Assembly: GCF_000332275.1 (NCBI RefSeq)
Contig: NZ_CM001776.1
Coordinates: 3,780,008-3,844,007, forward strand
Direction: 5' to 3'
Origin: Synechococcus sp. PCC 7336
GTDB taxonomy: Bacteria; Cyanobacteriota; Cyanobacteriia; Thermostichales; PCC-7336
Length of the DNA: 64,000 bases
The position numbers were made by a program, and so were the translations under genes. Shown here piece after piece: positions 15,008 to 20,906 of the stretch; position 1 is the first letter of the stretch; each line of letters starts with the position of its first letter. The notes beneath the pieces are model-generated. The model did not search any database, was not told where the DNA came from, and worked only from the letters and a program-made list of their open reading frames with translations.

Positions 15008-15472
15008 TTAATGGCGATCGCCTGCTGACGATGTGCCAGCTTCGGTTTTGAGGTCAATGCTCAAACGATTGCGCACCGTGTCGCGAACCACTTTATACGA
15101 GACATCGAGATTGAATTCCTGCTTGAGCCAGCCCCGCACCTCTGCGTAAGTGTCGAGCTGTCGGGGCGGATCGAGTACGCGCCCGAGTTGCACCAAGATG
15201 TCTGCTGGAATCGCCGGCTTTCTTCCCGGGCTGTGCTTGACGGTTAAGAGGGCCTCTAGGCCGCCATCGCGATAGAGCTTCAACCAGCGCTGAATCGTAA
15301 TGCGATCGCGACCCAATAGGAGCGCGACATCGCCAACAGTTTTAACCACGCCTAACTTGAGAAGATAAAGAGCGTGGATTCTCGCGTGAGTCCCCACCAT
15401 TTTCTGGAGATACATCAGCGATTTGAGTTCTTCGACAGATTCTGCAATATCGAGTTTGAGCTTGCCTGTCAT
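15008..15472 (-). CDS. Orphan IS630-type helix-turn-helix protein
   Basis: The 154-residue product matches the DNA-binding N-terminal part of IS630-family transposases: ARIHALYLLKLGVVKTVGDVALLLGRDRITIQRWLKLYRDGG is the HTH, followed by a winged-helix half (LDTYAEVRGWLKQEFNLDVSYKVVRDTVRNRL). The DDE catalytic domain that should follow is absent; only about 170 bases separate the stop from the next minus-strand gene. Either this is a truncated insertion or a transposase-derived regulator. No terminal inverted repeats were seen. Confidence 0.75.
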   Translation of the reverse strand: MTGKLKLDIAESVEELKSLMYLQKMVGTHARIHALYLLKLGVVKTVGDVALLLGRDRITIQRWLKLYRDGGLEALLTVKHSPGRKPAIPADILVQLGRVLDPPRQLDTYAEVRGWLKQEFNLDVSYKVVRDTVRNRLSIDLKTEAGTSSAGDRH

Positions 15473-15721: not shown

Positions 15722-16351
15722 TCAGTACAGATCGATCTCCATATCCACCCTCCAACTACCAAAGCCGGAATTGGATTGTTGCTGGCCCGAATACAGACTC
15801 TCCCCTCCACTCACCCGACCGAAACGATCCAAGTTGGGACGACTACCTGCATCAGCTCTCACCAGAGCCGTCCGCACGTTGGCAGGACCGGAGCCAGAAA
15901 TCGAAATGGTATTGCTAGTTCTGGACAAGTAGGGATCGAGGAGAATTTGTGCAGAATCGCCATCGAGCGTCGCGATCGCCTGACCGTTGGCTGTCACCGT
16001 ACCGCTAGCCCCCTCCAAAAGCAGAACGTAGTCATCGCGACTCAAGCTGCTGCGCTCGATCGCGATCGCCGTGCGGGAGGTGGATTGGCTACTCTGAGAC
16101 GAGCTAAAAGAAGACTGCGAACTTGTCGAAGACTGAGAGGTAAAGCCCGATGGAAAACTTTGTCCGTCCAGAAGCACTTGGGAGTCTCCACCGCCGCTAA
16201 AAACCCGAACGCTGTCGGTCACCACGCTCACAGAGCCATCTGGCCCCGTTTGGATAATCACCCCAGCAAGAACTGCTCCCCCGCAAACCGCCGCGAGGGC
16301 AGCTCCGAGGGTTCCCGTTCGCAGAAGCGTCCAGATTGTTTTAGTTGCCAT
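15722..16351 (-). CDS. Secreted Ser/Gln-rich protein, cluster member 5
   Basis: A signal peptide with Lys near the start and a long hydrophobic core (TGTLGAALAAVCGGAVLA) leads into a beta-rich region (VIIQTGPDGSVSVVTDSVRV). Next comes a Ser/Gln low-complexity block (about residues 73-97, many SSQSS units), another beta-rich segment with LLLEGASGTVTANGQAIATL, and a C-terminus ending with alternating hydrophobics (WRVDMEIDLY). It is last in a run of five minus-strand genes for exported low-complexity proteins. It lacks the exact QTQSAVQV motif of its neighbours but shares export and Gln-rich composition. Function unknown. Confidence 0.7.
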   Translation of the reverse strand: MATKTIWTLLRTGTLGAALAAVCGGAVLAGVIIQTGPDGSVSVVTDSVRVFSGGGDSQVLLDGQSFPSGFTSQSSTSSQSSFSSSQSSQSTSRTAIAIERSSLSRDDYVLLLEGASGTVTANGQAIATLDGDSAQILLDPYLSRTSNTISISGSGPANVRTALVRADAGSRPNLDRFGRVSGGESLYSGQQQSNSGFGSWRVDMEIDLY

Positions 16352-16409
16352 CATTGTTCTCCAAACAAGGGCAAAGGCTCAGACAGATCTCTCTGCCGAT
16401 TCATTCGTC

Positions 16410-16781
16410 TTAAAAGCCACAGTCCAAACCAATTTGGCGACCGTTCCCCCGCAAGCAGGGATCGGCTCCGTTGCCGCGACGGCCACCTCCGCGACCGCTG
16501 CGCCCCCCGCGACTGCCACTCTCCGGCTGAACCCGGATATTGCCCCGGAAGTCGTCGGGGACGTTAATGTTGAGAATTTGCGTTTGGTCGATTTGTTGTT
16601 CCAAAATCCCTGTTTGGCTAGTGGAACCATTGCCACCTCCCGCCTGCTGCTCTAGATCCCCCACCTGTACGGCAGATTGAGTTTGCTGCACGGGGATGAC
16701 AATTTTACCTGCGATCGCTGCAGGGGCAGTCGCAAAGGCGATCGCCATCCCCAGGGCCCCTACTCTCACACATTGCCACAT
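16410..16781 (-). CDS. Secreted Gln-repeat, Arg/Gly-rich protein, cluster member 4
   Basis: Start ATG 16781 was chosen because GGAGA precedes it and a signal peptide follows at once (VGALGMAIAFATAPAAIAG). The mature 100-odd residues carry QQTQSAVQVGDLEQQ, a Gly/Ser spacer, then QIDQTQILNINV and a GRSGRGGGRRGNG basic stretch; the C-terminus has two cysteines. The motif order QTQSAVQVG ... QTQxxNINV is the same as in cluster member 3, so these two are paralogues. Repeats of this kind suggest stacked beta strands, as in curli-like fibres, but this is an inference from composition. Confidence 0.65.
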   Translation of the reverse strand: MWQCVRVGALGMAIAFATAPAAIAGKIVIPVQQTQSAVQVGDLEQQAGGGNGSTSQTGILEQQIDQTQILNINVPDDFRGNIRVQPESGSRGGRSGRGGGRRGNGADPCLRGNGRQIGLDCGF

Positions 16782-16882
16782 GAGTTCGTTCTCCACGTAA
16801 TAGTCCGATACTTTGTCCAGCTTTCCCAAGCAGGGAGGATGACTCCCTCGGCGACTCAAAAGCTGCGCTCTTTCAATCGCCA

Positions 16883-17479
16883 TCACCGATTTCTCCGGTC
16901 GCGGCCGCGCCCCTGGAGATCGCCTTCTCTGCGACCCCGGCGACCGCCCGATATGTTATTGACATTCACTGTTTGGCTTTGACTGATGCCTTGGCCCAAA
17001 TTATTGTTTTGGGTGCTTTGGGATCCGCCGCCGCCAAGCTGAGATTGATTGCCCACTTGGACGGCAGTTTGCGTTTGATTGATGATAATGGGCTGCCGCC
17101 TTCTGACATTGATATTGACCGTCTGAACCTGATTGATGCCTTGGCCCAAGCTGTTATTTTGGCTTCCGCCACCGCCACCCCCAGACTGGGTCTGGTCGGC
17201 GACTTGAACGGCAGACTGGGTTTGGTTGATGATGACGGGCTGACTCCGCCGACGCCTGCCTCTGCGCCTTCTACCGACGCTCGCCATCTGTTTCGAGCTG
17301 AGCAGCGGTTCCGACAGCATGGCTTTGGAGAGCTCCTCAACCCGAGCGCGATCGCCCGCTCGGACCGCCGATTGCGTTTGATTCGCGATGCTTTGACGCC
17401 AACTTCGAGCCGGTCGAGCGTCAATGCCAGTGGCTGTCGCCAAGATTAGGGCGAGACCGAGTGCCGTTGCTTTGAGCAC
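16883..17479 (-). CDS. Secreted Gln/Asn-repeat, Arg/Gly-rich protein, cluster member 3
   Basis: I place the start at GTG 17479 because AAGGAA lies just upstream and a signal peptide follows (ALGLALILATATGIDA); a longer frame opens at TTG 17536. The mature protein has an early NQTQSAVRAGDR unit and two near-identical modules, each INQTQ[ST]AVQV[AG][DN]Q.Q followed by a Gly/Ser/Gln spacer with LGQGI and then QTVN[IV]N. The modules are separated by GRRRRGRRRRSQ and RRRQ linkers and end in an RG-rich tail. This is the clearest repeat protein of the cluster. Alternating polar/aliphatic residues favour a beta-solenoid or amyloid-like fold. Confidence 0.65.
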   Translation of the reverse strand: MLKATALGLALILATATGIDARPARSWRQSIANQTQSAVRAGDRARVEELSKAMLSEPLLSSKQMASVGRRRRGRRRRSQPVIINQTQSAVQVADQTQSGGGGGGSQNNSLGQGINQVQTVNINVRRRQPIIINQTQTAVQVGNQSQLGGGGSQSTQNNNLGQGISQSQTVNVNNISGGRRGRREGDLQGRGRDRRNR

Positions 17480-17595
17480 GATCGTTCCTTGGGCTGAGTT
17501 CTCGCAAGAACTGATACGCCGCTTCAGTGTTCTCAAACTTCTCGGAAGTGAAGGGGAGGGGAAGGCCCTTCCCCTTCATCCAACTAGCGAGCCAG

Positions 17596-17961
17596 TCAGG
17601 GCAAGCCCGGTAGAGCGAATTGGAGCTGTTGCGCGTTTTGCACGTTCGTTGCGTTTTGCACACTCGGAGCGACGCGGATATCGCGATCGATCGGAATGTC
17701 TCTGCGATGGCGCGGACTCTGGGGCGTACTAGGTTGTCTGCCCCGACCTGCTCTCGTCTGAGCTTGACTTTGCTCTTGGATCAGGATCGCCTCTTGGTTA
17801 TCCACGCCGAATCCCAACTGAATTTGCTGGGCATTTTGAACGCTGACGGCATTTTGAACGCTGGGGGAAATATCCAGGTTGCCGCCCGCCCGAGCGGGGG
17901 CAATCGCGATCGCGCTACTTCCCACCGCCAGCACCATTCCCCAAAGGGTCAATCGATTCAT
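17596..17961 (-). CDS. Secreted VQNA-repeat protein, cluster member 2
   Basis: ATG 17961 has an AGGAGG site and begins a signal peptide (LTLWGMVLAVGSSAIAIAPARA). The mature part contains two copies of the motif SVQNAxxVQNAQQ[IL]Q, one at each end, separated by a Gln-rich and basic/proline linker (GRGRQPSTPQSPRHRRD). The gene starts eight bases after the stop of cluster member 1, so they are in one operon. The symmetry (repeat, basic linker, repeat) mirrors the other members. Unknown function; a fibre or matrix subunit is plausible. Confidence 0.65.
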   Translation of the reverse strand: MNRLTLWGMVLAVGSSAIAIAPARAGGNLDISPSVQNAVSVQNAQQIQLGFGVDNQEAILIQEQSQAQTRAGRGRQPSTPQSPRHRRDIPIDRDIRVAPSVQNATNVQNAQQLQFALPGLP

Positions 17962-17969
17962 GCTGCCTC

Positions 17970-18320
17970 CTATTCGAAACCGCCGAGGCTGTCTTGAATC
18001 AGATCGTTAACGTTGATGCTGTTCTGGCGAATGCGACGGCCACTCAGGGCCTCTTGGGACTGAACGCTTTGTTGCACGCCCGTGTTGGTCTGCTGGATTG
18101 AGATATCGCTGCGGCTGCGACGACCGCGACGACCGACTGCAGACCGCTGGCCTAGCTGCTGTACGTTAGTGCTGTTCTGAATAACCTCGCCCACTCCCTC
18201 GGCAAATTGAAACTGATCGGATTGCTGAATAGCAGTGTTGGTTTGGACCACATCAGCAGAGGCAGCCGCCGCCAATCCCAGGGTCGCGATTGTACCAAGC
18301 GCAATGGATTTAAAAGCCAT
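17970..18320 (-). CDS. Secreted QTNT-repeat protein, cluster member 1
   Basis: ATG 18320 with GGAG upstream gives a signal peptide (IALGTIATLGLAAAASA). The mature protein holds QTNTAIQQSDQFQ and, 50 residues later, QTNTGVQQSVQSQ, plus NSTNVQQ and NSINVND segments, separated by GRRGRRSRSD. It is the first gene of the five-gene minus-strand run, whose promoter should lie in the 18321-18560 gap shared divergently with lspA. No enzyme motif is visible. The two-repeat layout with an Arg/Gly linker is the family hallmark. Confidence 0.65.
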   Translation of the reverse strand: MAFKSIALGTIATLGLAAAASADVVQTNTAIQQSDQFQFAEGVGEVIQNSTNVQQLGQRSAVGRRGRRSRSDISIQQTNTGVQQSVQSQEALSGRRIRQNSINVNDLIQDSLGGFE

Positions 18321-18560: not shown

Positions 18561-19022
18561 ATGAAAAACGCTGGTTTTTGGGTGGCAGCGCTGGTGGGTA
18601 TTGCGATCGATCGATTCACCAAGCTGTGGGTGGCGAACACAATGGAGTTGGGCCAGAGTTTGCCCGCCATCCCGGGGCTGTTTCGCTTCACCTACATCGA
18701 AAATACTGGGGCAGCCTGGAGTTTGTTTCGAGAGTCGGGGGGCTTTTTGAAATGGATCTCGCTGGTGGTGGCACTCGTACTGGTGGCAATGGCCCTCTTC
18801 GGACAACCCATGCGCCGTTGGGAGCAATTGGGCTACGGTTGCATTCTGGCAGGGGCGATCGGAAACGGGGTCGATCGCTTTATGTCAGGCGCTGTGGTGG
18901 ATTTTCTCGACTTTGTGCCGATTGACTTTCCTATCTTTAATGTGGCGGATGTGGCCATCAACATTGGGGTTGCCTGTCTGATTGTCGGTACGTTTGCCTC
19001 TGCCAAACCCGAACGAGAGTGA
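18561..19022 (+). CDS. lspA: Lipoprotein signal peptidase (signal peptidase II)
   Basis: A 153-residue membrane aspartic protease with four hydrophobic helices that removes signal peptides from diacylglyceryl-modified prolipoproteins. Motifs are DRFTKLWV near residue 19, FTYIENTGAAWSLF near 43, and the two catalytic Asp regions GNGVDRFMSGAVVDFLDF and FNVADVAINIG in the second half. Length is normal. It is followed 37 bases later by queC on the same strand. Confidence 0.96.
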   Translation: MKNAGFWVAALVGIAIDRFTKLWVANTMELGQSLPAIPGLFRFTYIENTGAAWSLFRESGGFLKWISLVVALVLVAMALFGQPMRRWEQLGYGCILAGAIGNGVDRFMSGAVVDFLDFVPIDFPIFNVADVAINIGVACLIVGTFASAKPERE

Positions 19023-19761: not shown

Positions 19762-20093
19762 GGCGGCGGTGTCAATATAGCGGTCAATGGCGCTGTCTTC
19801 GGCGATTCCTCAGTACGGGCAACATGCTGCGGTAAGTATCGACCGAGCCCCAGGGGAACTCGTAATAGTACTGAGCTGACGCCCTAAGCACTCCATAAAT
19901 ATGTAAATAGTAGCGTTCAAATCCCCTTGAGAGTTGAGTTATTTACGTATTATTACGCGATCGAGACAGGCCGGCCCGGTAATGTCTATCTTAATACTTG
20001 GATGTAGACTACGTATTTCTACTGAGGTTCGTTACAGTTATCCCCCGACAGGTTGGTTCAGTTAGAACATTTACATTTAAGGTTAAGCAGGCA
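19762..20093. other. Intergenic region upstream of the PEP-CTERM gene
   Basis: No credible ORF or RNA gene. The stretch around 19930-20040 is AT-richer and probably holds the promoter and leader of the downstream secreted protein. Several TACGTATT-like words occur near 19945 and 20010, without a clear operator symmetry. Confidence 0.4.
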
Positions 20094-20906
20094 ATGATTC
20101 GGGAACGTATTACCGATCGATCGTTTTTATTCGCCGCCAAGACAGTCATCCTCAGCCTCGGCCTTTTGGCTGGCTCTGCAACTGCTTCTCTGGCAGGAGT
20201 GGGCCTAGAGGTTGGCCAATATCGCTTGAAGGATCATCCCTTTGGCGGTGCCGCGCCCCCTACCTACGGATTGCGGCTTGACGGACTGCTCACGGATGAT
20301 GCAAGTGATGTCTTCACGTTCAGCTTCGATCCTGGCGTTTTCCTGACATACGATGGCTCCAGCATCACAATTGAGGGCACAGTTAGAGGCGGACTCGATC
20401 TGGGAAACAGCGCCCCAGACCCGAGCAATCAGCGCCCTGACGAAGCATTATTTGACCTTCTGATTACTTACAGCACTGGCATCGTAGATGTCGCCCAGGG
20501 GATAAAGGTCGATCCGGGGCCACCCACGCATACAGGTTCGCTCACCCTCGTGGAAGACTTTGACTTCGATGGCGATGGCAATGATGACTTTTTCGCCAAC
20601 GACATCTTCTTACTCCGAGAATTTCTCAAATCTGACGGCACCAGCTTTATCTTCGCGGCAGATGGCCACCGCTTAGGTTCGACACCCCAAGATGTTTTTG
20701 TCGGGCGCGGCTGGTTGACCCACGAGAACAATGGGGTGGGAACGAGTCACAACCAGCCCCGCAGAGCTTCTGACTTCTTGTTTGTCGGTACGCAAATTCC
20801 AGAACCTACAACAGTTTTGGGCTCTCTGGCGGCTTTAGGAGGTAGTTATATCCTCAAGCGCAAGAGAAGCCAAGCTAACGACGGCGATCGCCCATCGACT
20901 CATTAG
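20094..20906 (+). CDS. PEP-CTERM sorting domain protein
   Basis: The 270-residue product has a signal peptide (VILSLGLLAGSATASLA) and a beta-rich exported body with calcium-binding-like acidic patches (DFDFDGDGNDDFF). The C-terminus is a canonical PEP-CTERM tripartite signal: IPEPTTVLGSLAALGGSYILKRKR, i.e. PEP, hydrophobic helix, basic tail. Such proteins are processed by exosortase and released to the cell surface or matrix. ATG 20094 was chosen because it places the signal peptide correctly; the longer frame from 19998 adds an unlikely leader. A hairpin follows the stop. Confidence 0.85.
   Translation: MIRERITDRSFLFAAKTVILSLGLLAGSATASLAGVGLEVGQYRLKDHPFGGAAPPTYGLRLDGLLTDDASDVFTFSFDPGVFLTYDGSSITIEGTVRGGLDLGNSAPDPSNQRPDEALFDLLITYSTGIVDVAQGIKVDPGPPTHTGSLTLVEDFDFDGDGNDDFFANDIFLLREFLKSDGTSFIFAADGHRLGSTPQDVFVGRGWLTHENNGVGTSHNQPRRASDFLFVGTQIPEPTTVLGSLAALGGSYILKRKRSQANDGDRPSTH

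Follow-up and report, generated by a model that had tools for sequence, protein, structure and literature searches.

What is encoded by five consecutive genes of secreted proteins on the minus strand of the Synechococcus sp. PCC 7336 genome? Within the window, by which we mean the whole 64,000-nucleotide stretch that was analysed, these genes (g1-g5) lie at 18320-15722, and the first-pass annotation had read them as an operon of paralogous fibre or matrix subunits that stack through Gln/Asn-rich repeats. Our analysis gives a slightly better than even chance that the window operon belongs, as a divergent form, to a kind of operon found in cyanobacteria that encodes secreted building blocks for an extracellular fibre or matrix. 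The genes are as follows; families A and C are defined below.

g1, 17970..18320, minus strand: 116 aa, secreted, Gln/Asn repeats as two pairs with a GRRGRRSR linker; A-like
g2, 17596..17961, minus strand: 121 aa, secreted, VQNA..VQNAQQ.Q repeats; A-like
g3, 16883..17479, minus strand: 198 aa from a GTG start, secreted, with NQTQ[ST]AVQV...QTVN[IV]N units (two complete, a third degenerate) and linkers that are strongly basic; A-like
g4, 16410..16781, minus strand: 123 aa, secreted, a single g3-type unit and a Gly/Arg-rich tail
g5, 15722..16354, minus strand: 210 aa, secreted, a Ser/Gln-rich spacer and a predicted C-terminal beta-sandwich; family C member by sequence

The claim of five consecutive minus-strand genes with signal peptides was borne out: a Sec-type signal peptide, judged by eye, stands at the N-terminus of all five proteins, and a purine-rich ribosome-binding stretch precedes every start. 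For g3, the GTG at 17479 is the preferred start and an alternative TTG at 17536 is less likely. The intergenic gaps from g1 to g5 are 8, 116, 101 and 55 bases. The gene lspA (18561-19022, Pfam Peptidase_A8), followed by queC, diverges from the operon, and about 2 kb from the operon 19998-20906 on the plus strand encodes a secreted protein whose PEP-CTERM sorting signal is of the cyanobacterial kind (NCBIfam TIGR04155, E 3e-7). Immediately downstream, 15008-15472 on the minus strand holds the N-terminal part of an IS630-type transposase (48 bits against a cut-off of 100). The window genome is a single contig of 5,066,637 bases and the sole member of its family among the genomes compared; those nearest to it belong to the same order and are mostly about 3 Mb in size.

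We found no Pfam or NCBIfam model match for any of the five proteins, in agreement with the earlier statement that they carry no enzyme or membrane domain; g5 has, in addition, a folded C-terminal beta domain. Local alignments of the mature parts of g1-g2, g1-g3 and g3-g4 each outscored 1000 of 1000 shuffles; g4 is tied to the other repeat genes solely via g3, and g5 is unrelated to g1-g4. The related internal repeats described for four genes are those of g1-g4 and exceed what composition explains, the basic linkers between them are present (8 Arg/Lys per 12 residues in g3), and the notion of paralogous secreted subunits in one operon is supported for g1-g4. The two full units of g3 share 73% DNA identity with changes mostly at third codon positions (dN 0.18, dS 1.7); because they differ chiefly at silent positions, the repeat sequence has been maintained by selection, and the two units are under purifying selection.

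To the reading of paralogous subunits the first-pass annotation had attached the expectation of repeats and gene order conserved in relatives, and this expectation divides in two: the exact repeats occur in the window genome only, and a related operon recurs widely among cyanobacteria. Searched against 386 cyanobacterial genomes, a profile built from the eight window units matched this operon only, with no repeat paralogue elsewhere in the window genome, and a search with g3 as a single protein among 59 relatives recovered g3 itself alone. Extra matches of the eight-unit profile in genomes G243 (E 0.009) and G276 (E 0.003) were dismissed as chance, the former lying in another frame across an ordinary long gene and the latter in a 38-residue frame.

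The related operon was reached through g5, for which weak relatives were detected in other cyanobacteria; the surroundings of seven of these were read, and each adjoins small secreted Gln/Asn-repeat proteins. The loci share five families: A, with Gln/Asn repeats; E, which is small and basic; B, which contains Cys; C, which resembles g5; and D, with NTENDFG...NTLDASNVT...QPGR ahead of a likely coiled coil. None of the five is in Pfam or NCBIfam. They stand on a single strand with short gaps in the order A (1-7 copies)-E-B-C-D, some loci being without E, C or D. Against a family C profile built without the window, g5 scored 39.7 bits (E 6e-12), the best of 300 shuffles reaching 5.4 bits; on sequence grounds, g5 is a member of family C and links the window operon to the others. 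The family C profile gave convincing matches in 16 of 386 genomes, the window genome counted in, and further loci besides; a weak match in G307 (E 9e-4, within a 619-aa frame) was set aside. The window shares with this operon its family C gene and the same-strand secreted Gln/Asn-repeat genes directly upstream of it. No B or D gene was found in the window genome by searches that were positive in carrier genomes, and no E gene among the window ORFs.

A scan of named genomes with family D yielded 33 loci, with carriers in Fischerella, Calothrix, Rivularia, Richelia, Plectonema, Westiellopsis, Dolichospermum, Aphanizomenon, Nodularia, Chamaesiphon, Myxacorys, Phormidium and others. Seven D loci lack any other member, and family C stands without A, B, D and E at two loci (L055 7059-7523 and L056 7017-7487) that have a secreted neighbour in common. 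Family B is the most widespread (at least 37 of 350 genomes of the class and at least 21 of 147 genera) and family D was found in at least 9 of 386 genomes, these counts being lower bounds because few candidates were scored per genome. Across all the loci that were read, an A gene lies on the same strand and no more than 4 kb away for 65 of 66 B genes. Collectively, these data indicate, at the level of gene content and order, that the A-E-B-C-D operon is a previously uncatalogued type shared across many cyanobacteria.

Several loci depart from this arrangement. A long (358-368 aa) secreted Gln/Asn-rich protein directly follows C in L057 (7510-8616) and L058 (1660-2736), and seems to be a lengthened version of the short A-type gene found after C in L031, L032 and L060. 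In L102 (4901-5308), L111 (4882-5295) and L112 (4843-5256), a further operon variant without C and D, the gene after B encodes a conserved secreted protein that contains Cys (DCSAVIQ.EA.RYATYQQ). Among the flanking genes, no conserved exporter or assembly gene accompanies the operon, and the neighbours that recur seem to reflect lineage context. In 12 loci (L033, L063-L069, L071-L073 and L085) the operon adjoins a gene for a small conserved protein (MKLFEILLDADLLLEAL..., PIN-like by eye), which is probably chromosomal context.

Family A is secreted, and many of its members have Arg/Gly-rich linkers like those of the window proteins. Its signature is a ladder, Q-x3-Q-x5-G-x2-N-x3-Q-x3-Q, observed 102 times against a shuffle mean of 0.1, and G.GN occurs 150 times against 21 in shuffles; between tandem A copies, dN is well below dS. 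We consider it likely that g1-g4 are diverged A genes or functional replacements of A. They match family A in position, order, strand, size, Gln/Asn content, signal peptide and basic linkers, and the fit is good by position and composition and weak by sequence. The mean alignment score to the A set was reached by 0 of 200 shuffles for g1, 0 of 200 for g2 and 2 of 200 for g3, and by 23 of 200 for g4 and 46 of 200 for the g5 control, neither of which stands out; g1 and g2 also show an excess of the pattern [VIL]Q...Q (reached by 8 and 7 of 500 shuffles, respectively). No copy of the strict A repeat occurs in g1-g4, and a profile-profile comparison of the window repeats with the A units was not significant. 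The A-unit profile also failed on mature g1-g4, for which 60 to 805 of 1000 shuffles scored equally high. Matches of a whole-protein A profile to g2 (E 2.9e-5) and g1 (E 2.1e-4) were rejected as proof of membership because most of their score comes from the signal peptide.

These profile results, together with the absence of B and D from the window genome, would suit a different account, in which g1-g4 arose in this lineage alone, have no relation to family A and came to lie beside a family C gene by chance. Against it stand the agreement with A genes in position, order and strand, in size and Gln/Asn content, and in the basic linkers, as well as a residual similarity of g1-g3 to A beyond composition; we judge this account very improbable.

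Structural modelling was carried out on a family A protein from Phormidium. AlphaFold, given 46 relatives, predicted three strand-turn-strand units with one long strand pair per unit. Confidence was modest, with a mean pLDDT of 62.7, values of 70-80 for the best strands and a pTM of 0.44. A Foldseek search of this model against 350,542 PDB chains ranked FapC first (E 0.011), a CsgA fibril third (E 0.27) and FapC again sixth (E 0.74), all with low TM-scores; E-values this weak make the likeness to FapC and CsgA a hint only. In VIA-align the model reached Z 4.3 with CsgA and 4.2 with FapC, but 6.8 with a SufB/D beta-helix chain, and family A profiles run against the sequences of solved structures (PDB) gave chance matches only. 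The proposed stacking through the repeats is suggested by the model of a family A relative and its weak FapC and CsgA matches, and is opposed by the better VIA-align score of SufB/D.

The modest confidence of the A model, the short low-complexity repeats and the Arg/Gly-rich tails and linkers would also befit secreted, largely disordered matrix or sheath proteins, whose Gln/Asn units and Arg/Gly linkers bind acidic polysaccharide and serve as a glue without ordered cross-beta fibres. This is the main rival to our reading, and the sugar-binding-like fold of g5 described below would also accord with it. We nevertheless hold it to be unlikely: the spacing of the A repeat is strict and conserved across lineages, and the purifying selection on the g3 units and on tandem A genes exceeds what composition alone would need.

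For g5, AlphaFold predicted a beta-sandwich at residues 90-210, with pLDDT 76-94 for the most part. This C-terminal domain aligns best with the N-terminal sugar-binding region of GH2 enzymes (Z 6.7, 83 residues, 3.1 A), and a relative gave a sub-threshold match to rhamnoside_JR, a glycosylhydrolase-like jelly-roll model. Since a Z below 8 can mean a common beta-sandwich arrangement, we put forward sugar binding by g5 as a hypothesis suggested by its fold. The predicted fold would also lean the target of the basic linkers, for which nucleic acid or acidic polysaccharide had been named, towards polysaccharide. The family C profile searched against the sequences of solved structures returned chance matches only. 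The GH2 sugar-binding (jelly-roll) domains are given as the closest fold to the g5 C-terminal domain, from which they differ in that g5 has neither a catalytic domain nor membership at the sequence level.

Taken together, our favoured reading of the window operon as a source of extracellular building blocks suggests the following mechanism. The g1-g4 proteins, as the window version of the family A subunits, would first be exported by the Sec pathway and would then pass beyond the outer membrane. On the model of the Phormidium relative, each Gln/Asn unit may form one strand-turn-strand layer, and ladders of side chains would stack such layers in a cross-beta manner within and between copies to yield fibres or matrix. 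The Arg/Gly-rich linkers would remain outside the stack, where they could grip acidic polysaccharide. The family C partner, g5, with its beta-sandwich behind a Ser/Gln-rich spacer, is likely to act as a cap, an anchor or a sugar-binding accessory, its domain possibly contacting the polysaccharide.

Location is the step at which another account enters, namely that the proteins are periplasmic or sit on the outer membrane in an envelope or stress role. In its favour, the only export signals observed are Sec signal peptides, the operon has no linked gene for an outer-membrane exporter, and the window genome lacks CsgG; the tandem expansion to seven A copies fits structural material better, and the A model bears a weak likeness to secreted fibre subunits. 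We regard this account as quite improbable and retain the extracellular one. A repeat-subunit operon carried by roughly one in ten of the cyanobacterial genomes sampled, and missing from Pfam and NCBIfam, would offer a genetic handle on how cyanobacteria construct their sheaths, mats and biofilms. It might also bring to light a new fibre architecture and a new route of export.

Among known systems, curli resembles the operon in being an operon of Sec-exported repeat subunits with strand-turn-strand units, fixed Gln/Asn positions and a Gly turn; a few A proteins contain the minimal QxGxxN motif, and the A model shows the weak structural match to the CsgA fibril. It differs in that the A-type Gln spacing is four residues and each protein has only two or three units and basic linkers. 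Judged by the published curlin motifs, including the Qx10Q spacing (PMC10192328, PMC3521004), N-x-Psi-x-Psi-x-Q half repeats and Qx10Q are at shuffle level in g1-g4; in family A the strict half motif occurs 59 times against 36 in shuffles and Qx10Q is depleted, 42 against 182. The curlin repeat model PF07012, searched at E 1, matched nothing in the window genome (the E. coli control was positive) and none of the family A members. The absence of CsgG from the window genome was established with positive controls, and in the three of 15 carrier genomes that have CsgG it lies away from the operon. The A-E-B-C-D operon, with its window form, is other than curli.

The Fap system has few, longer imperfect repeats with variable linkers and conserved Asn/Gln (PMC12392863). 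Family A shares the few, longer imperfect repeats, the variable linkers and the conserved Asn and Gln, and FapC was the top, albeit weak, Foldseek match of the A model. Fap operons are mostly fapABCDEF or fapBCDEF, FapB and FapC almost always having three repeats (PMC12822426); the A-E-B-C-D order differs from these, and the family A profiles recovered no FapC in the PDB. The phyla named in a published survey of curli and Fap operons, which used profiles of both systems, are Pseudomonadota, Desulfobacterota, Nitrospirota, Bacillota and Bacteroidota; cyanobacteria are not among them (PMC12822426).

The earlier statement that no cyanobacterial system of this form has been described holds as far as Pfam, NCBIfam and the literature were searched, ebfG being the only cyanobacterial amyloid operon found in the papers. 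The four-gene operon ebfG1-4 of Synechococcus elongatus PCC 7942 encodes small proteins of the matrix, and three of the four form amyloid structures (PMC9981879). It is likewise a cyanobacterial operon of small proteins, and is set apart, by its published description, by a C39-peptidase transporter in secretion, in contrast to the Sec-type signal peptides and Gln ladders found here. A bolder reading, possible but on the doubtful side, is that the A-E-B-C-D operons represent one more class of functional amyloid in bacteria, restricted to cyanobacteria and distinct from curli and Fap, in which Gln-ladder subunits of two or three units would be exported without CsgG, a sugar-binding-like partner would tie the fibres to the polysaccharide sheath, and the window operon would be the most divergent known form.
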